Assembly: GCF_003427025.1 (NCBI RefSeq)
Contig: NZ_QVAI01000002.1
Coordinates: 434,001-498,000 of the forward strand
Direction of reading: 5' to 3'
Length of the DNA stretch: 64,000 nt
DNA from: Jiangella endophytica
GTDB taxonomy: Bacteria; Actinomycetota; Actinomycetes; Jiangellales; Jiangellaceae
The notes below the pieces were generated by a model. That model was not told where the DNA came from. It saw nothing but the letters and a program-made list of their open reading frames with translations, and made no database searches. This document shows positions 5,060 through 15,598 of the stretch, in pieces. Within the stretch, counting starts at the first letter, position 1. Each line of letters opens with the position of its first letter. The position numbers and the translations under genes are program-made.

Positions 5060-6265
5060 ATGGGCCAGCAGCCGGCCAGCCTGACCATCACGAACGCGCG
5101 CATCTTCGACGGCTTCTCGGCCGAGCTGACCGAGGGTGATGTCCGCATCGTCGACGGCGTGATCGTGGATCCCGAGACGTGGGACAGCGAGGACCGCGAC
5201 GCGACCACGATCGACGCGCGCGGCGGCACCGTCGTCCCCGGTCTCATCGACGCGCACTGTCACGCCTACGGCATCGGGCTGGACATGGTCGGCATCGAGT
5301 CGAGCCCGCTGAGCTACGTCGCGCTCAAGGCGGCCCAGCGCTTGAACAACGCCCTGCGCCGCGGGTTCACGACGGTCCGCGACGTCGCGGGCGGCGACCC
5401 CGGGCTGGCCCGCGCGCTGGACGAGGGCCTGGCCGCCGCGCCGCGCTACTTCTACACCGGCCCGGCCCTCTCCCAGACCGGCGGCCATGGCGACCCGCGT
5501 CCGGGCGACAGCGACCTGTGCGTCGGCCACAACCACATGACGGAGGTCGTCGACGGGGTGGACGGGGTGCGGCGCGCCGTCCGCGATCGGTTCCGCCGGG
5601 GCGCGCACGCGATCAAGATCATGACGTCGGGTGGGGTGGTGTCGCTGACCGACCCGATCCGCCGGCCCCAGTACAGCGCCGACGAGGTCCGCGCGATCAC
5701 CGACGAGGCGGCCCGCCGCGGCTCGTACGTCGCCGCGCATGCGTACTCGCCCGAGGCGATCGAGCACTCCGTCAGCAACGGGGTCCGCTCGATCGAGCAC
5801 GGCAACCTGCTCGACGAGGCGACCGCCGCGCTGATGGCCGAGCACGACGCGTTCCTCGTGCCGACGCTGGCGGCGTACGACGCGATGGACCGGCGCGGTG
5901 ACGCGCTCGGGTTGAACCCGATCTCCAAGGCCAAGAACCGTGAGGTCCTCGACTCGGGCAAGCACGCGATCGAGCTGGCGAGGGACGCTGGCGTCCGCGT
6001 CGGCTTCGGCACCGACCTCATGGGCGATCTGGAGGACGACCAGCTGGTCGGGCTGCGCTTGCAGGTCGAGGTGCTCGGCGTCCTCGACGCGCTCAGGTCG
6101 GCCACGGCGGTCAACGCCCAGTTGCTGGGGCGCGACGACCTCGGCCGGATCGGCGCCGGCGCGGCCGGCGACCTCGTCCTGTTCGACGGCGACCCGTTCG
6201 CGGACGCCTCGCTGCTCTGGAGCGAGAAGGGGCGCATCGTCATCCGGTCGGGCGCGGTCGTCTGA
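5060..6265 (+). CDS. Metal-dependent amidohydrolase family protein
   Basis: This 401-residue enzyme belongs to the amidohydrolase superfamily of TIM-barrel metal hydrolases, in the branch that includes imidazolonepropionase-like proteins and Xaa-Pro or Xaa-Arg dipeptidases. Metal ligands and catalytic groups are visible: His66-x-His68 in DAHCH, a probable bridging Lys186 in AIKIMTSGG, His227 in AAHAYS, His247 in SIEHGN and Asp319 in FGTDL. The N-terminal ITNARIFDG and C-terminal LVLFDGDPFAD strands form the usual beta-sandwich. An agaaggg ribosome-binding site precedes the ATG at 5060. It begins 157 bp upstream of the tRNA-Arg gene, in the opposite direction. The substrate is not recognised, though a dipeptide or cyclic amide is plausible. 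Confidence 0.85.
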   Translation: MGQQPASLTITNARIFDGFSAELTEGDVRIVDGVIVDPETWDSEDRDATTIDARGGTVVPGLIDAHCHAYGIGLDMVGIESSPLSYVALKAAQRLNNALRRGFTTVRDVAGGDPGLARALDEGLAAAPRYFYTGPALSQTGGHGDPRPGDSDLCVGHNHMTEVVDGVDGVRRAVRDRFRRGAHAIKIMTSGGVVSLTDPIRRPQYSADEVRAITDEAARRGSYVAAHAYSPEAIEHSVSNGVRSIEHGNLLDEATAALMAEHDAFLVPTLAAYDAMDRRGDALGLNPISKAKNREVLDSGKHAIELARDAGVRVGFGTDLMGDLEDDQLVGLRLQVEVLGVLDALRSATAVNAQLLGRDDLGRIGAGAAGDLVLFDGDPFADASLLWSEKGRIVIRSGAVV

Positions 6266-8577: not shown

Positions 8578-9531
8578 TCAGAAACCGGCCGCTGCTCGCG
8601 CCAGTCGCAGCGTCTGCTCGGGCGCGACGGAAGGGTCGTCGCGGACGACGGCGACGTCGAGGCCGGCGGCCGCGAATCGGGTGAAGGCGGCCGCCACCTC
8701 GGCGGGCGTGCCCGCGGCGACGAGCCGGTCCAGCAGCTCGTCCGTCACGAGGTCGACCCGCGGCGCATCGGCGACCAGCCCGGCCCGGAACTGCGCGCAC
8801 AGGTCCGCCGACAACCCGGCGGATCGGGTGATGAGGTGGTCGCCGTGGATGCCGAGGAAGCGCGCGACCATCGGCCGGATCCGATCCCGCGCCGCCGCGC
8901 CGGAGGCGTCGACCGACAGTCCGACGTAGCCGGCCAGCCGCACCGACGGGCCGACGGCGTCGCGGACCAGGCGGACGTAGGCCGGTCCGGCCAGGATCGA
9001 CAGCAGCACGCCGTCGGCGGCGCCCGCCGCAAGCTCCAGCGCTCGCGGCCCCTTGACCCCGAGCACGATCGGCAGGTCCGGCCGTAACGGCCGGAACGAC
9101 AGGGCGGTGTCGACGGTGTATGCAGGCCCGGAGTGCGTGACGTGCTCGCCCGCGAGCAGCCGGCGCACGATGGAGACCGACTCGGCCAGCCGGCTCAGCG
9201 GCCGGTCGAACGCGATGCCCAGCTGCCCGGTCATCCACCGTTCGTTGCTGGCGCCGAGGCCCGCCAGCGCGCGCCCACCGCTCAGCTCGTCCAGCGTCGC
9301 GAACTCCATCGCCAGCAGCACCGGGTGCCGGGTCCAGGGGTTCACCACACCGATCCCGACCTGGACCGACGAGGTTGCCTGGGCGATGGCGCCGGCCAGC
9401 GCGAACGCGCCGCGCTCCACGTAGTCCTCGGTGACCCAGACCTCGTCGAACCCGGCCTGCTCGGCGGCGACGGCGGCAGCGACGGCGGACCGGCTCGGCC
9501 GGTGCCCGGACAGCGAGAACGCCAGCCGCAT
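8578..9531 (-). CDS. LLM-class (luciferase-like) flavin- or F420-dependent oxidoreductase A
   Basis: A 317-residue TIM-barrel oxidoreductase of the luciferase-like monooxygenase superfamily, whose members use FMN or F420. Typical elements are the first strand LAFSLSG, AAEQAGFDEVWVTEDY, the QVGIGVVNPWTRHPVLLAM segment near residue 70 and a C-terminal GTPAEVAAAFTRFAAAGLD. The start ATG overlaps the stop of the PLP-enzyme gene by one base (TGATG), so translation is probably coupled. It is the last gene of a five-gene operon that also encodes an NCS1 permease, a second LLM protein, an M24 hydrolase and a PLP enzyme. It most likely performs an oxidative or redox step on the imported compound. Confidence 0.85.
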   Translation of the reverse strand: MRLAFSLSGHRPSRSAVAAAVAAEQAGFDEVWVTEDYVERGAFALAGAIAQATSSVQVGIGVVNPWTRHPVLLAMEFATLDELSGGRALAGLGASNERWMTGQLGIAFDRPLSRLAESVSIVRRLLAGEHVTHSGPAYTVDTALSFRPLRPDLPIVLGVKGPRALELAAGAADGVLLSILAGPAYVRLVRDAVGPSVRLAGYVGLSVDASGAAARDRIRPMVARFLGIHGDHLITRSAGLSADLCAQFRAGLVADAPRVDLVTDELLDRLVAAGTPAEVAAAFTRFAAAGLDVAVVRDDPSVAPEQTLRLARAAAGF

Positions 9532-10775
9532 CAGGACCCGACCGCGGCCAGCAGTGCGTCCGCCGACGGCTCGATGACCGGCACCTCGGGCAGCGTCGCC
9601 GCCGTCGCGCCCACGTCCTTGAGTCCCGTCGACGTGCCGATGACCACGACCGACGAGTCGGCGGGCAGCAAGCCCCGCGCGGCCAGGGTCGCCAGGGCCG
9701 GCCATGCCGTCGCCGACGCCGCCTCCTGGTACAGGCCGGCGGACGCGGCCAGCTCGCGCTGCGCGGTCAGGACGACCTCGTCCGAAGGGACGGCAACCGC
9801 GGCGCCGTCGGTCGACCGCAGCGCGCTGAGCCCCTGGAACGTCCCGACCGGCGAGGCCGTCGAGAACGCGACGGACGGCTGGTACGGCACCGGACCGGCG
9901 ACCTCGGCCCCGGTGGCCAGTGCCGCCGCGTGCGGGCCGAACGGCTCGGCCGCCACCATGCGCGGCGAACGCTCCAGCACGCCCAGCGCGACGAGGTCGG
10001 CGAAGCCGCGCGCGATGCCCACCAGCCCGTCCGCGTAGGCCGTCGGCACCACGACGACGTCCGGCGGCGACGGCAGCTGGTCGGCCAGCTCGTAGGCGAT
10101 GGTCTTGTAGCCGTCGACGCCGTACGGGTTGGAGCCGACCGGCGGGTCGGCGTGGCCGGACATCGCCAGCCAGCCGAACTTCCGGACCAGCTCGCGCATC
10201 AACGTCCAGCGCTGCCGCGGCTCCGGCAGCGCGACCACCTGCGCGCCGTAGACCTGCATCAGTGTCTTCATCGTCGACGGGACGCTGGCGACCGTCAGCA
10301 CGACGCAGCGCAGCCCGGCCCGCGCCGCGTAGGCGGCGATGGCCGCGCCGTGGTTGCCGGTGCTCGCGACGACGACGGTGTCGATGCCCAGCTCGACCGC
10401 CTTGGTGACGGCGACCGACGCCAGCCGGTCCTTGTACGACCACGTCGGATTGCGGGTCTCGTCCTTGACGACGACCGACGCGACGCCGAGCCGCTTCGCG
10501 ACCGCCGGCAACTCGACGACCGGGGTCGCGCCCTCGGCCAGGCTGACCGCCGGCGTGCCGGCAGCCAGCGGCAGCAGCGCCCGGTACCGGAACAGGCCGG
10601 GCTCCCCGTCGGACACCGGCACGGCCTCCAGGCCGGCGAGGTCGTAGCGCGGCAGCACGTTCGCCGGCACGCCGTCCGCCTCGCACGCCGGGCAGCCGCG
10701 GCCGACCAGCTCCAGCGACGGGTCCGGGTAGCTCGCGGCACAGCGCAGGCAGCCGAGCGTGCGGGTGTACGTCAT
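9531..10775 (-). CDS. Threonine-synthase-like, fold-type II PLP-dependent enzyme
   Basis: This 414-residue protein has the threonine synthase/tryptophan synthase-beta fold. The PLP Schiff-base lysine is Lys115 in TWSYKDRLA, followed by the phosphate-binding region VVASTGNHGAA. An N-terminal zinc-ribbon-like pattern (Cys9-x2-Cys12, Cys28-x2-Cys31) is also seen in archaeal/actinobacterial threonine synthases. A housekeeping threonine synthase would normally sit with hom and thrB. Here the gene lies in a PucR/NCS1/LLM operon, so a catabolic lyase or deaminase acting on a beta-substituted amino acid is more likely. The start overlaps the M24 gene stop by 4 bp (ATGA). Confidence 0.8.
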   Translation of the reverse strand: MTYTRTLGCLRCAASYPDPSLELVGRGCPACEADGVPANVLPRYDLAGLEAVPVSDGEPGLFRYRALLPLAAGTPAVSLAEGATPVVELPAVAKRLGVASVVVKDETRNPTWSYKDRLASVAVTKAVELGIDTVVVASTGNHGAAIAAYAARAGLRCVVLTVASVPSTMKTLMQVYGAQVVALPEPRQRWTLMRELVRKFGWLAMSGHADPPVGSNPYGVDGYKTIAYELADQLPSPPDVVVVPTAYADGLVGIARGFADLVALGVLERSPRMVAAEPFGPHAAALATGAEVAGPVPYQPSVAFSTASPVGTFQGLSALRSTDGAAVAVPSDEVVLTAQRELAASAGLYQEAASATAWPALATLAARGLLPADSSVVVIGTSTGLKDVGATAATLPEVPVIEPSADALLAAVGS

Positions 10776-11971
10776 GTGGTCACCACCCGCAGGTCGCGGC
10801 TGGACCGGGTCAGCAGGTCGACGCCGTCATCGGTGACGACGACCGCGTCCTCGACCATCATCCCGCCCCATCCCAGTTCGTAGTACGGCGTCTCGAAGCA
10901 GAACGTCATGCCCGGCGCGAGCTCCGTGTCGACGCCGGGCGCGACGATCGGCGGCTCGTAGATCGACAGTCCGATGCCGTGCCCGCAGTGCTGCCGACGG
11001 TACCGGGGCACGCCGTTCGCGACCGCGTCGAGCCCGATCCCGAACAGCTCGGCGGCGGGCAGCCCTGGCCGCGCGGCGGCCAGCTGCTCGTCCTCGCCGG
11101 CCTTGACGGCGGCGTAGACGTCGCGCTGCCGGGCGGACGGCTCGCCGAGCACCGCGGTACGGCCGATGTCGGACCAGTACCCGTCGACGACGCAGCCGAC
11201 GTCGAACCGGGCGGTCTCGCCGGGCCGCCAGGCGCGGGCGGACGGGACGGCGTCGGCCAGCGCGGACCGCTCGCCGGTGAGCGCGACGACGAAGCGCGGG
11301 TCGCCCCCGCCGGCCACCATCGTGCCGGCGACGACGGCGGCCAGCTCGGCCTCCGTGGTGCCCGGTCCGGCGGCGGCCAGCGCGGCGTCGATGCCGGCCT
11401 CGGCCAGCTGGGCGGCGTAGGCCAGCAGCTCCACCTCCGCCGGCAGCTTGCGCGACCGGACGGTGAACAGCAGCCCAGCGCCGTCCTCGACCACGTCACC
11501 GCAGGCCGCGAGCACATCGGCGGGCACGTCGCGGGTCTCGACCGCCAGCCGCGCCGAGGACGGGAGCGCCGCGACCACGGCGGCCAGCGCTCCGGCCAGC
11601 CCGTCGTGCCGGTCGGCGACCTCGGTGATCGGGTCCGGCGACCCGGACTCGACGTAGAACCGGCCGAACGGCGAGATGCGCTCCACGGGAACAGCGGTGG
11701 CGCCGGCAGCCGGCACGTCGGCCGCCGGCGCCACCAGCCAGAGGTCGGTGGCGGTCACCAGCGCCGCCATCCGATGGGTGCGGAACACCTGCCCGGGCAT
11801 GCTGCGGTAGCCGGTCGCGTAGAGGACACTCTCCGGCTCGGTCAGCACGACCGCGTCATAGGGCTGTTCCGCGAGCCCGGCGCGCAGCCGGTCGAGGCGG
11901 TCGCGCGCCAGAGCGGCCAGGTCGACCGCGGGCTTGGACGGGACGGTGGACTGCGTGGAACCGGCCGTCAT
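10772..11971 (-). CDS. M24 family metallohydrolase (Xaa-Pro peptidase/creatinase-like)
   Basis: A 399-residue pita-bread-fold protein. The five metal ligands of M24 are all present: Asp257 (RFDVGC), Asp268 (YWSDIGR), His331 (CGHGIG), Glu360 (FCFETPY) and Glu374 (MVEDAVV), so an active dinuclear metal site is expected. The N-terminal creatinase/prolidase domain covers about residues 20-165. M24 relatives cleave Xaa-Pro bonds but also non-peptide C-N bonds (creatinase, ectoine hydrolase). In an operon with a permease, two monooxygenases and a PLP enzyme, hydrolysis of a small amide or ring-opened product is likely. It overlaps both neighbours by 4 bp. Confidence 0.85.
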   Translation of the reverse strand: MTAGSTQSTVPSKPAVDLAALARDRLDRLRAGLAEQPYDAVVLTEPESVLYATGYRSMPGQVFRTHRMAALVTATDLWLVAPAADVPAAGATAVPVERISPFGRFYVESGSPDPITEVADRHDGLAGALAAVVAALPSSARLAVETRDVPADVLAACGDVVEDGAGLLFTVRSRKLPAEVELLAYAAQLAEAGIDAALAAAGPGTTEAELAAVVAGTMVAGGGDPRFVVALTGERSALADAVPSARAWRPGETARFDVGCVVDGYWSDIGRTAVLGEPSARQRDVYAAVKAGEDEQLAAARPGLPAAELFGIGLDAVANGVPRYRRQHCGHGIGLSIYEPPIVAPGVDTELAPGMTFCFETPYYELGWGGMMVEDAVVVTDDGVDLLTRSSRDLRVVTT

Positions 11972-12990
11972 CGGCTGCCCTTCGTCTCTGCGGCGATGAT
12001 CGTCTCGCTGAACTCGGCCATCGCCTCGGTCGTCTCCTCGACGGTGTCGACGGCGAACAGCAGGCCGGCCAGCGTCGTCACCCCGGCGTCGCGGTAGGCG
12101 CGGACCTGCGCGGCGACGTCGTCGGGGGTGCCGATGAGGTTGCGGGCGGCGAGGTCGCCGGTGCCCTGGTCCTTGAGCGTGGTCTTCGACAGCGACGCGA
12201 GGTGCTTGAAGACCTGCGACGACTCGAACCGCCGCCAGGCCTCCTCACGGGTCGGCGCGACGCTCACGGCGACCTGCAGCGCGACCTCGAAGCCGGCCGG
12301 CAGTTCGCGCCCGCGCTCCGCGGCCTCGGCCCCGATGGCCGTCAGCGCGGCGCGCACCTCGTCCGGCGTGAGGCAGGCGGGCAGCCAGCCGTCGCCGTGG
12401 CGGGCGGCTCGCGACCGCGAGCCGGGCGAGTTGCCGCCGGACAGGATCGGCAGCCGCCGCTCCCCGTACGGCTTCGGATAGCTCTCGACGTCGGTGAACT
12501 CCACCCAGGTGCCGTGGAACGACGCCGACCGCTCGGTCAGCAGCGCGCGCAGCGCCGGGATGGCCTCCTCGGCGTGCTCGCCGCGGTGGATCCGGCGGCC
12601 CGGCTCGATGGCCTCCAGCTCTTCGCGGTAGGCGCCGATGCCGACGCCGAGCACCGCCCGGCCACGTGACAGTTGGTCCAGCGTCGCGGCCTGCTTCGCG
12701 GCGACGACGGGGTGGCGGAACGGCAGCACCATGACCGCCGTCGCCAGCCGGATCCGCTCGGTCACGGCGGCGACGTAGCTGAGGTAGCCGAACGGGTCGT
12801 AGTAGCGCGGCGCCTGGTCGAACTCGGCACGTACGTAGCGCTGCGTCGTCAGGTGGTCGTTGCCCCAGATCGACTCGAAGCCCAGCCGCTCCGCCGTCAC
12901 CGCCAGCTCGACCGCCTGATCGATGTCCGCGTACGGGACCGGGTACATGAGCCCTTCGGTCCCGGTCGGGACGCCGAGTCCGAACCTCAC
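11968..12990 (-). CDS. LLM-class (luciferase-like) flavin- or F420-dependent oxidoreductase B
   Basis: The 340-residue product is a second luciferase-like TIM-barrel oxidoreductase, only distantly similar to the LLM protein at 8578-9531. The start FGLGVPTG, AERLGFESIWGNDH, RIRLATAVMVLPFRHPVVAAKQAATLDQLS and RAVLGVGIGAYREELEA are hallmark segments. The C-terminus has NLIGTPDDVAAQVRAYRDAGV. It starts at GTG 12990, which overlaps the permease stop as GTGA. Proteins of this type use F420H2 or reduced FMN to reduce or oxygenate substrates. A pair of different LLM enzymes in one operon suggests two consecutive redox steps. Confidence 0.85.
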   Translation of the reverse strand: MRFGLGVPTGTEGLMYPVPYADIDQAVELAVTAERLGFESIWGNDHLTTQRYVRAEFDQAPRYYDPFGYLSYVAAVTERIRLATAVMVLPFRHPVVAAKQAATLDQLSRGRAVLGVGIGAYREELEAIEPGRRIHRGEHAEEAIPALRALLTERSASFHGTWVEFTDVESYPKPYGERRLPILSGGNSPGSRSRAARHGDGWLPACLTPDEVRAALTAIGAEAAERGRELPAGFEVALQVAVSVAPTREEAWRRFESSQVFKHLASLSKTTLKDQGTGDLAARNLIGTPDDVAAQVRAYRDAGVTTLAGLLFAVDTVEETTEAMAEFSETIIAAETKGSR

Positions 12991-14309
12991 GAGCGCACCC
13001 CCGCGGCCGGGGACGGCGAGCGCCATCGGGTGAGTGCGGTCCCGACGACGGCGTACAGGACGAAGCCCGCGACCAGGCCCTCGATGGCGTCGGCGAGGAG
13101 CAGGTCGCTGTAGCGGGCGATCAACGCGGCAGCCACCCAGCAGCCCAGCGCCTCCCAGCGGACGGCCGGGGCGGTGCGCAGCAGCTCGGTGGCGTCCCAG
13201 CGGCGGACCACCACCCAGAAGTACGCGATCAGCACGCCGGCGAACGGTGGCACCACCACCGAGATCACGCCGAGGAACCGCTGGAACTCCGCGGCCAGCC
13301 CGGCGAACGCGATGAGCAGCGCGATCAGCACGGCGATGACCGTCCACACCGGCTTGGCCACCTTGAGGCCAAGCGTGTTCGACGCGTTCGTGAAGGCCAG
13401 CGACGCCGAGTAGATGTTGTTGTCCGCGGTGTTCCAGAGCGCCAGGAACAGCATGACGGCGGCCGGCGCGAGCAGTCCGAGGCCCTGCATGACGACGACG
13501 AAGTTGCTGTTCCCGACCTTCATCGCCGAGACCGTCGCGATGATCTCGAAGATCGCGGCGCCCACCGCGAAGCCGCAGAAGCTGGAGATGACGACGTCGC
13601 GGGCGCGGACGGCGTACCGCTGCACGTCGCCGACCAGCGCGGCGCCGGTGACCCACGTCGCGATGACGGCGCCGATCGCGACCGAGAAGCCGATCGGGGC
13701 GGCCGGCTGGTAGTTGACGACGTCGGCGAACCCGCCGTCGAGGTCGGCGATGCGGACCAGCGCGAACAGCGCGATCGCCACCTGGACCGGCACGGCGATC
13801 GCCGAGTACCGGTGCAGGCCCTTGAAACCGAAGATCGCCGTGGTCAGGATCGCCGCGCTGAACGCCAGGATGAACGCCCACTTGGGGATCTCCGGGATCA
13901 GCTGGTTCACGGCCAGACCCCAGGTGTCCATCAGCACGCCGATGAAGCCCATCGCGACCACGCCCAGGAACAGCGACACGATCACCGCGCCATGGGTGCC
14001 GAACACCGCACGTGAGGTGAGGTAGCTGGTGAGCCCGGTGCGGAAGCCGACCATGCCGACCAGGCTGGCCACCACCGCGAGCAGCACGTTGCCGAGCAGG
14101 ATCGCCAGCAGGCCCTCGGTCAGGGTGGTGCCGCCGCCGACGACCCCGCCGACGAGGAAGCTGCTGACGCTGATGTTCCAGCCCATCTGAACGACGATCA
14201 GCTGGATCAACGGCTTGCGCCGGTCGGCGGGGACCGGCTCGAGGGCATGGTCCTCCATGTCCGTGGCCACGGTGCTCTGGACGGCTGTGGTGTCAGGCTC
14301 GGTGCTCAC
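12987..14309 (-). CDS. NCS1-family purine/cytosine/allantoin-type permease
   Basis: A 440-residue integral membrane transporter with about 12 hydrophobic helices. NCS1 (nucleobase:cation symporter-1) proteins import nucleobases, hydantoins, allantoin, thiamine or pyridoxine with H+ or Na+. Recognisable segments are QMGWNISVSSFLVGGVVG near residue 35, where the first transmembrane helix carries the substrate site, then GFRTGLTSYLTSRAVFG and WVTGAALVGDVQRYAVRARD. The GTG start at 14309 is chosen because GGGGAGG lies about 7 bases upstream. A longer reading would cross the divergent promoter region. It is the first gene of the PucR-linked operon and so probably defines its substrate class, a nitrogenous heterocycle or related amide. 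Confidence 0.88.
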   Translation of the reverse strand: MSTEPDTTAVQSTVATDMEDHALEPVPADRRKPLIQLIVVQMGWNISVSSFLVGGVVGGGTTLTEGLLAILLGNVLLAVVASLVGMVGFRTGLTSYLTSRAVFGTHGAVIVSLFLGVVAMGFIGVLMDTWGLAVNQLIPEIPKWAFILAFSAAILTTAIFGFKGLHRYSAIAVPVQVAIALFALVRIADLDGGFADVVNYQPAAPIGFSVAIGAVIATWVTGAALVGDVQRYAVRARDVVISSFCGFAVGAAIFEIIATVSAMKVGNSNFVVVMQGLGLLAPAAVMLFLALWNTADNNIYSASLAFTNASNTLGLKVAKPVWTVIAVLIALLIAFAGLAAEFQRFLGVISVVVPPFAGVLIAYFWVVVRRWDATELLRTAPAVRWEALGCWVAAALIARYSDLLLADAIEGLVAGFVLYAVVGTALTRWRSPSPAAGVRS

Positions 14310-14425
14310 GAAATGCCTCCCCGGTCGCCGGTGCCTGTTGGGGTGCCATGTTGTCCACAATCCGCCCGTCGCTCTATGGGGTATCTCCGGAAGTTGACAC
14401 ACTACGATTTGTGGATCTGACACAA
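14310..14425. promoter_or_regulatory. Divergent promoter region with TTGT...ACAA operator-like repeats
   Basis: Between the permease and PucR start sites lie the near-palindrome ttgtccacaa (14351-14360) and the 17-bp inverted repeat ttgtg-N7-cacaa (14409-14425), which spans the PucR start codon. They share the half-site TTGTS. The regulator next door is the likely ligand, either repressing itself or activating the divergent operon, but this is inferred. Confidence 0.45.
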
Positions 14426-15598
14426 CGGGCCGAGCTTCTTCTCAGCCGTGTTTCCGACGTGGCACAGACGCTCGTCGGCGACGTCTGGGAGCGGCTGCCC
14501 GGCTACGACGACGCCCGGATGGATCTCGACGACCTCGTCGGTGTCGTGACGCCGAACCTGCGGGCGCTGCTGGTCGCCGTCGCGGGCAACCGCGGGCTGC
14601 GTCCGGACGAGGTGACGCCGGCGGCGCAGCTCGGCGAGCGGCGGGCCGTGCAGGGCGTGCCGATCGAGGGTGTCGTCGCATCGTGGCACTCGGCCGAGCG
14701 GCGGCTGCTGGACCAGCTGGTCGCCGCGGGACCGCCGATGGCGCCGGAGGAGTACACGCGGCTGGCCCGGCTGCTGGCAGGCGCGGTGGACGTCATGGTG
14801 GCGGTGTCGACGGAGGCGTACCGGCGGACCCGCACCGAGGCGGCCGCGCACCTGGACCAGATCGCCACCGACCTGGTGTCGCGGCTGGCCGGCGGCGAGC
14901 CGCTGGACCCGGCGCACGTCGAGGAGCGGGCCCGGCTGATCGGCGTCGCCGCCCAGGTGCCGCATCGAGCGGTCGCCGTCGGCGGTCCCGGCGACGACCC
15001 GCTGCAGGTGGCCCGGGCGCAGCGGGAGATCGTCGACGCGCTGCGGCCGCGGCTGCGCTCGCGGATCCTGGTCGGTGCGAAGGACGCGACGATCCTGCTC
15101 GTGCTGCCGGATCTGCCGGGTCTCGGCGACATGCTGTCGCGCGCCGCCCGGAGACCAGGAGTGGCGTCGGGAACGGTGATCGGGCTGGGTGAGCCGCGCG
15201 ACCGGCTGGGCGAGTCGGCGGCGTCCTGCCGTGAGGCGGTCGCGGCGCTCGAGGCCGGTCGGCGGGCCGGGCTGGACCGCGTGGTCGTTCCGTTCGACCA
15301 GGTCATCGCCGACGTCATGCTGATCGACAACCCGCTGGACGCTCGCCGGCTGGCGGCCCGGGCGCTGGAGCCGCTGGCCGGGCACGGGCAGCTGGTCGAC
15401 ACCGTCCGGGCGTATCTGGCGACCGGGTTGTCGGTGCGGAGAACGGCGGAGCGGCTGGCGGTGCACGAGAACACCGTCTCCTATCGGCTGCGGCGGGTGG
15501 CGTCGCTGCTGGCGCTGGACGGACCGGAACAGCTGATCAGGTCCGACCTGCTGCTCGCGCTGCGCGCCGTCGACCTCGGGTTGTACGCGGCGCCCTGA
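14411..15598 (+). CDS. PucR/CdaR family transcriptional regulator
   Basis: The 395-residue protein has the PucR-type architecture. A sensory/GGDEF-like middle part includes residues around VVPFDQVIADVML. A C-terminal HTH_30 domain contains LVDTVRAYLATGLSVRRTAERLAVHENTVSYRLRRVASLL, with the recognition helix in the N-T-V-x-Y-R-L segment. Family members control purine, allantoin and sugar-acid catabolism. The GTG at 14411 is preferred to an upstream ATG at 14348 because the family N-terminus (VDLTQRAELLLSRV) starts there. The gene is transcribed divergently from the NCS1/LLM/M24/PLP operon and is its probable regulator. Confidence 0.85.
   Translation: MDLTQRAELLLSRVSDVAQTLVGDVWERLPGYDDARMDLDDLVGVVTPNLRALLVAVAGNRGLRPDEVTPAAQLGERRAVQGVPIEGVVASWHSAERRLLDQLVAAGPPMAPEEYTRLARLLAGAVDVMVAVSTEAYRRTRTEAAAHLDQIATDLVSRLAGGEPLDPAHVEERARLIGVAAQVPHRAVAVGGPGDDPLQVARAQREIVDALRPRLRSRILVGAKDATILLVLPDLPGLGDMLSRAARRPGVASGTVIGLGEPRDRLGESAASCREAVAALEAGRRAGLDRVVVPFDQVIADVMLIDNPLDARRLAARALEPLAGHGQLVDTVRAYLATGLSVRRTAERLAVHENTVSYRLRRVASLLALDGPEQLIRSDLLLALRAVDLGLYAAP

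Follow-up and report, generated by a model that had tools for sequence, protein, structure and literature searches.

In a 64,000-nucleotide stretch of the Jiangella endophytica genome (contig NZ_QVAI01000002.1, positions 434,001 to 498,000; hereafter, the window), five overlapping genes coding for an NCS1 permease, a luciferase-like enzyme (LLM1), an M24 hydrolase, a threonine-synthase-like pyridoxal phosphate (PLP) enzyme and a second luciferase-like enzyme (LLM2) lie divergently from the gene of a PucR-family regulator. We propose, with a probability of roughly 0.55, that the products of this operon break down a small nitrogen compound, most likely a planar N-heterocycle but not cytosine, by a pathway that depends on F420 and needs no oxygen. 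The computed evidence consists of the genes and their catalytic residues, their linkage over long evolutionary range and their association with F420 genes. As the initial annotation had supposed, a search of the open-access literature yielded no description of a pathway with these genes, priority being uncertain. If the proposal is correct, soil actinobacteria, marine bacteria and gut anaerobes would have in common a new F420-dependent catabolic route, and orphan LLM, M24 and PLP families would gain a function.

To map the distribution of the operon, 84,980 species genomes were scanned for relatives of the PLP enzyme and all operon proteins were mapped onto the 80 loci retrieved. The gene order in other actinobacterial genomes, proposed earlier as a check, was indeed retained: the exact arrangement of a reversed PucR gene followed by NCS1-LLM1-M24-PLP-LLM2 was found at 18 of the 80 related loci, in the Jiangellales (Jiangella, Phytoactinopolyspora) and in genera of Streptosporangiales and Micromonosporales, a conservation far beyond chance over three actinobacterial orders. 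At 12 further loci, mostly of Nocardioides, Cellulomonas and microbacteria, the order is LLM1-M24-PLP-LLM2 and then PucR in reverse orientation; an oligopeptide-type ATP-binding cassette (ABC) importer precedes these genes at several of the loci. The order LLM2-LLM1-M24-PLP was found at 6 loci (Acidimicrobiia and three metagenome-assembled genomes, MAGs: one labelled Acidobacteria, one gammaproteobacterial and one of Dehalococcoidia), and PLP-LLM2-LLM1-M24 at another 6; Rokubacteria carry the latter order together with an ABC importer of the branched-chain type. The enzyme core occurs, rearranged and accompanied by different transporters, in Acidimicrobiia, Rokubacteria, Chloroflexota and Clostridia. 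Since the same four enzymes stay together despite the rearranged order, they are functionally linked and do not merely share descent; as judged from sequence, the enzyme set is a real, mobile functional unit.

A link to F420 was seen in gut Clostridia, where at two loci (L079, from the isolate Marseille-P2935, and L083) a regulator, RidA, NCS1, LLM1, M24, PLP, LLM2, NpdG, an energy-coupling factor (ECF) S component and CofE follow one another in a single run. In L079, NpdG (NADPH:F420 reductase) scored 208 bits (cut-off 150) and CofE (F420 glutamyl ligase) 258 bits (cut-off 181). Another locus, L059, which is cut at its start, contains the second half of the same type of run; at L081 CofE is located between M24 and LLM1, and one Nocardioides locus has NpdG and CofC downstream. 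Of the LLM1-carrier genomes tested, only three small MAGs gave no CofE match, and CofH matches were present in two of these three; among five PLP loci that lack LLM genes and lie outside the class Actinomycetes, four were devoid of CofE (Fisher p = 0.01 for CofE against LLM presence, only indicative as the sequences are related). No second clostridial LLM1 was found in 295 genomes of the order of Marseille-P2935, and LLM1 is therefore rare in that order. Aerobes and anaerobic lineages (the lifestyle of the clostridial carriers being taken from taxonomy) share one NCS1-LLM1-M24-PLP-LLM2 unit, which argues against an obligatory oxygen step. Because the same genes adjoin F420 genes in these anaerobic lineages, LLM1 and LLM2 are most likely F420-dependent hydride-transfer enzymes, and the oxygenation by two luciferase-like enzymes considered in the initial annotation is not supported.

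Family and fold comparisons pointed in the same direction. LLM1 scored 213.7 bits (cut-off 166.9) against TIGR03619, an F420-annotated LLM family, and remained under the cut-off of all the curated monooxygenase models (RutA, 46.8 of 498 bits; SsuD, 77 of 518; SfnG, 101 of 383); its homologues across phyla are 46–77% identical. The best structural matches of its predicted structure (pLDDT 91.7) were with F420-dependent Mer (8qpl, 8qq8 and 8qpm; Z 34.4–34.8, root-mean-square deviation (rmsd) 2.0–2.2 Å over 297–301 residues), next to which came the flavin mononucleotide (FMN) enzyme SfnG (Z 33.2). The nearest solved relative of LLM2 is also F420-dependent Mer (E 1.9e-39), and the Mer model gave its best F420-family score, 174 bits (cut-off 276), all its F420-family matches being below cut-off; the clostridial homologue reached 247 bits. 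Both proteins share the fold of Mer, Adf and FGD1, which are their nearest sequence relatives, but they stay under the Mer and FGD cut-offs and form conserved families of their own, tied to M24 and PLP genes.

Several observations weigh against the proposed pathway. In the structural matches of the LLM1 model, F420 enzymes lead FMN enzymes by a small margin, about 1.5 Z. Most of the loci lacking NCS1 carry oligopeptide-, branched-chain- or NMT1-type ABC importers, and the class of substrate may not be the same everywhere. In some bacteria (chlamydiae), folate can be a substrate of CofE (PMC1971073). Rieske dioxygenase-type genes accompany the mycobacterial variants, so that some versions would include an aerobic step, and Jiangella is without Fo synthase, so that F420 use there would need salvage. 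The last two points, together with a fold common to SfnG, SsuD and RutA, would also fit LLM proteins acting as FMN-dependent monooxygenases in an oxidative, aerobic pathway, as in rut or alkanesulfonate catabolism. We hold this to be quite improbable, given that anaerobic Clostridia have the same genes in one run with NpdG and CofE, that the operon has no flavin reductase partner, that the closest families (TIGR03619, Mer) are F420-annotated and that CofE tracks LLM presence. As for CofE, a role with F420 was favoured over one with folate because NpdG is present and the folate-ligase score is low (66 bits for the L079 protein, versus 258 with the CofE model). The clostridial ECF S component, which is of the vitamin type, matched FolT just over the cut-off (61.3 bits, cut-off 60), and the riboflavin type as well.

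The source of F420 was examined through the biosynthetic genes. CofD and CofE were above cut-off in the window genome (99.99% complete) and in the other Jiangella genomes tested. On the contrary, both halves of Fo synthase were missing, CofG from 12 of 12 and CofH from 7 of 7 Jiangella genomes tested, several of which consist of a single contig. Among the other Jiangellaceae sampled, CofG was absent in 6 of 7 genomes and CofH wherever tested except in G012, a sister-genus genome where both are present. The gap is found also at a larger scale, as in 296 near-complete genomes of the class Actinomycetes CofD was detected in 247 and CofG in 205, leaving at least 42 of the 247 CofD-bearing genomes without the CofG half. 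In the clostridial carriers (G099–G101, and G102 with a partly different locus), CofE was present and CofD, CofG and CofH were not found; G099 is an isolate genome, and absences are weak evidence in MAGs and stronger in Jiangella and Marseille-P2935. Several operon owners, Jiangella included, thus seem unable to make F420 from scratch, and the NpdG/ECF S component/CofE triad is a candidate salvage module for F420 precursors. Tentatively, and at slightly less than even odds, we suggest that an F420-dependent pathway operates in owners that often do not make F420: Jiangella would salvage Fo, whereas Clostridia would import F420-0 or F420 via the ECF S component, with glutamylation by CofE trapping the cargo as folate is trapped, and salvage would be packaged with the pathway. 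Salvage, with Jiangella as a predicted Fo auxotroph, is the simplest interpretation; an unrecognised Fo synthase in Jiangella, or CofE acting on folate, would be the alternatives. In a 2021 review on F420 the words salvage and uptake are absent, and Fo and F420 genes are said to co-occur in most organisms; the open-access papers searched gave no description of F420 salvage, for which priority is again uncertain. If salvage does occur, F420 would be a traded cofactor, and cross-feeding of F420 or Fo would be directly testable in culturable strains.

The nature of the cargo was approached through the permease, whose nearest solved relative is CodB (aligned to 7qoa) and which scored 213 bits against the CodB model, below the cut-off of 326. 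The roles of CodB residues have been reported, including the Gln105 and Trp108 side chains needed for cytosine transport (PMC9379551); the Jiangella permease has A119 and F122 at these positions. The aromatic sandwich remains aromatic (Trp108 to F122, Phe204 to W219) and equivalents of Arg216 and Tyr285 are shared, but the cytosine-reading Gln105 is lost and Asn280 is likewise replaced by alanine (A295). With the sandwich kept and Gln105 and Asn280 lost, a planar N-heterocycle is therefore a plausible cargo, while cytosine was ruled out by the pocket residues and the CodB score. An N-heterocycle is favoured also because of the molybdenum hydroxylase and hydantoinase-A genes of marine loci and of the clostridial RidA. 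The nitrogenous ring initially predicted as substrate may hence be right, in view of the CodB-type sandwich; many homologous loci have ABC importers of oligopeptide, branched-chain or other type. The PucR family assignment was confirmed, but PucR alone, of a family first noted as controlling purine/allantoin-type catabolism, does not fix the substrate. The thiamine pyrimidine (HMP), loosely suggested by a CytX-like score of the permease and by an NMT1-like protein downstream in L034, was discarded since, by our own reasoning, its ring opening gives no alpha-amino acid for the PLP enzyme.

In the M24 hydrolase the five metal ligands (DDHEE) are D257, D268, H331, E360 and E374, with a conservation of at least 95% for each in 66 sequences. 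Together with Lys115 of the PLP enzyme, conserved over 83 sequences, they had been correctly recognised from the window alone. The M24 protein belongs to the creatinase/prolidase fold class and is under every specific NCBIfam cut-off (prolidase, DoeA, DddP). The PLP enzyme is of fold-type II, according to PF00291 and Lys115, and carries the family motif NPTWSYKDR. The closest folds to its model (pLDDT 94.4) are threonine synthases (Z 39–42.5, best rmsd 2.2 Å over 368 residues), which are also closest in sequence and share the catalytic Lys. However, ThrC cut-offs were not reached (TIGR00260, 119 of 167 bits; PRK08197, 218 of 303), the gene is tied to catabolic genes, and the arginine of the NPxR motif, which we take to be a phosphate contact, is replaced by the near-invariant Gly219 (NPYGVDG, at least 90% conserved). 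In view of the missing arginine, the substrate of the PLP enzyme is likely an unphosphorylated amino acid.

The nearest relatives of the M24 protein are Xaa-Pro dipeptidases, and oligopeptide/nickel-type ABC importers are found in many actinobacterial, acidimicrobial and clostridial loci. Both facts would suit a peptide-like or amino-acid-derived substrate, with the M24 enzyme as dipeptidase, the PLP enzyme as lyase and the LLM pair as dehydrogenases. Such a substrate appears unlikely, since peptides are not known as cargo of NCS1 permeases, NCS1 lies within the unit in Jiangella, Streptosporangiales, Micromonosporales and Clostridia, and prolidase models are far under cut-off. Ectoine/hydroxyectoine degradation (DoeA/EutD with EutB) offers a different parallel, in that a cyclic-amidine-opening M24 enzyme has a fold-type II PLP enzyme as partner and both families are weakly matched. 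Nevertheless, the scores fall far under the cut-offs (two DoeA models, 77 of 575 and 60 of 613 bits; EutB, 57 of 413), the ectoine route itself has no F420 enzymes and its importer is of another type; the ectoine hydrolase may thus serve as a mechanistic model for the M24 enzyme, not as a family assignment.

In the F420-dependent pathway we propose, for which substrate class, step order, redox direction and products are inferred, PucR would switch the gene set on and NCS1 would import the small nitrogen compound. Through LLM1 and LLM2, ring intermediates would exchange hydride with F420, being more probably reduced than oxidised. In the ring so altered, the M24 enzyme would cleave a C-N bond by hydrolysis, much as ectoine hydrolase does, and the resulting amino acid would then undergo elimination or deamination by the PLP enzyme to an enamine/imine, decaying to an oxo acid and ammonia with the help of RidA in some carriers. 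Every part of the operon has a place in this scheme. F420 reductases are known in xenobiotic reduction and antibiotic biosynthesis (PMC8498797), and the operon might accordingly serve anabolism or detoxification, by metabolite modification or xenobiotic inactivation, rather than growth on a nutrient; this is very unlikely, since most complete loci have dedicated importers, control is by PucR, RidA occurs, and the set is compact, with neither tailoring nor synthetase genes.

Among known routes, rut, ectoine and canonical purine/hydantoin pathways were ruled out by model scores and gene content, and the operon matches no standard purine, rut or hydantoin gene set, as first noted. The Rut pathway (RutA, RutB, RutC) has in common an LLM enzyme acting early and, in clostridial loci, a Rid-family protein, but it differs in the RutA score of LLM1, in its dependence on oxygen and FMN and in RutB or other rut partners, which are absent from the operon. 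The ygeXY-type route, an anaerobic uric acid/purine route, provides an analogy that makes uric acid or purines possible, yet a single hydrolase seems insufficient. The anaerobic breakdown of riboflavin in gut Lachnospiraceae was rejected because the genes induced there differ (PMC12934955).

Table 1. Features of the operon, its regulatory region and the clostridial F420-related triad (window coordinates, unless a locus is named).
Feature	Position	Strand	Description
NCS1 permease	12987-14309	minus	GTG start, 440 aa; PF02133
LLM1	11968-12990	minus	GTG start, 340 aa; PF00296
M24 hydrolase	10772-11971	minus	399 aa; PF00557 + PF01321
PLP enzyme, threonine-synthase-like	9531-10775	minus	414 aa; PF00291
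LLM2	8578-9531	minus	317 aa; PF00296
PucR-family regulator, divergent	14411-15598	plus	HTH_30 PF13556 + GGDEF_2 PF17853; start from homologues
Divergent promoter region	14310-14428		TTGTG-N7-CACAA inverted repeat at PucR start
NpdG + ECF S component + CofE triad	L079:12299-14280, L083:12309-14288, L059:2703-4701		Clostridia, beside operon

Each of the five operon genes (window 8578-14309) runs from a start to a stop codon without an internal stop. From NCS1 down to LLM2 they overlap by 4, 4, 4 and 1 bases (GTGA, ATGA, ATGA, TGATG), in accordance with the overlaps of 1–4 bases initially described, and the Pfam families agree with the gene types named at the time; the view that the genes act together, import, hydrolysis and PLP step included, is supported as one co-expressed unit. 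Although the open frame of PucR begins at 14348, most homologues align from about residue 21, which makes GTG 14411 the more probable start. The inverted repeat (window 14405-14428) is conserved in most of 19 aligned NCS1/PucR intergenic regions and is a possible operator; it overlaps PucR codons, and coding constraint could also explain its conservation.

Some neighbouring genes are worth recording. An amidohydrolase on the plus strand of the window (5060-6265), weakly similar to Xaa-Pro dipeptidases (229 bits, cut-off 500), adjoins tRNA-Arg and a phosphoenolpyruvate carboxykinase gene; amidohydrolase and carboxykinase were excluded from the operon, their adjacency to it being kept only in Jiangella. 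In two Mycobacterium loci (L042, L069) genes for Rieske dioxygenase subunits and for an alpha/beta hydrolase precede the core, and an unassigned 327-aa protein without Pfam match is encoded downstream. At six marine loci (L031, L035, L039, L040, L046, L056) the core is beside a xanthine-dehydrogenase-type molybdenum hydroxylase and hydantoinase A, along with S-Me-THD-like (DUF917), SDR and SnoaL-like genes; some genes are present twice. The L031 contig is labelled as a Poseidoniales archaeon and is probably mis-binned, its genes being nearly identical to those of the Acidimicrobiales loci L046 and L056.

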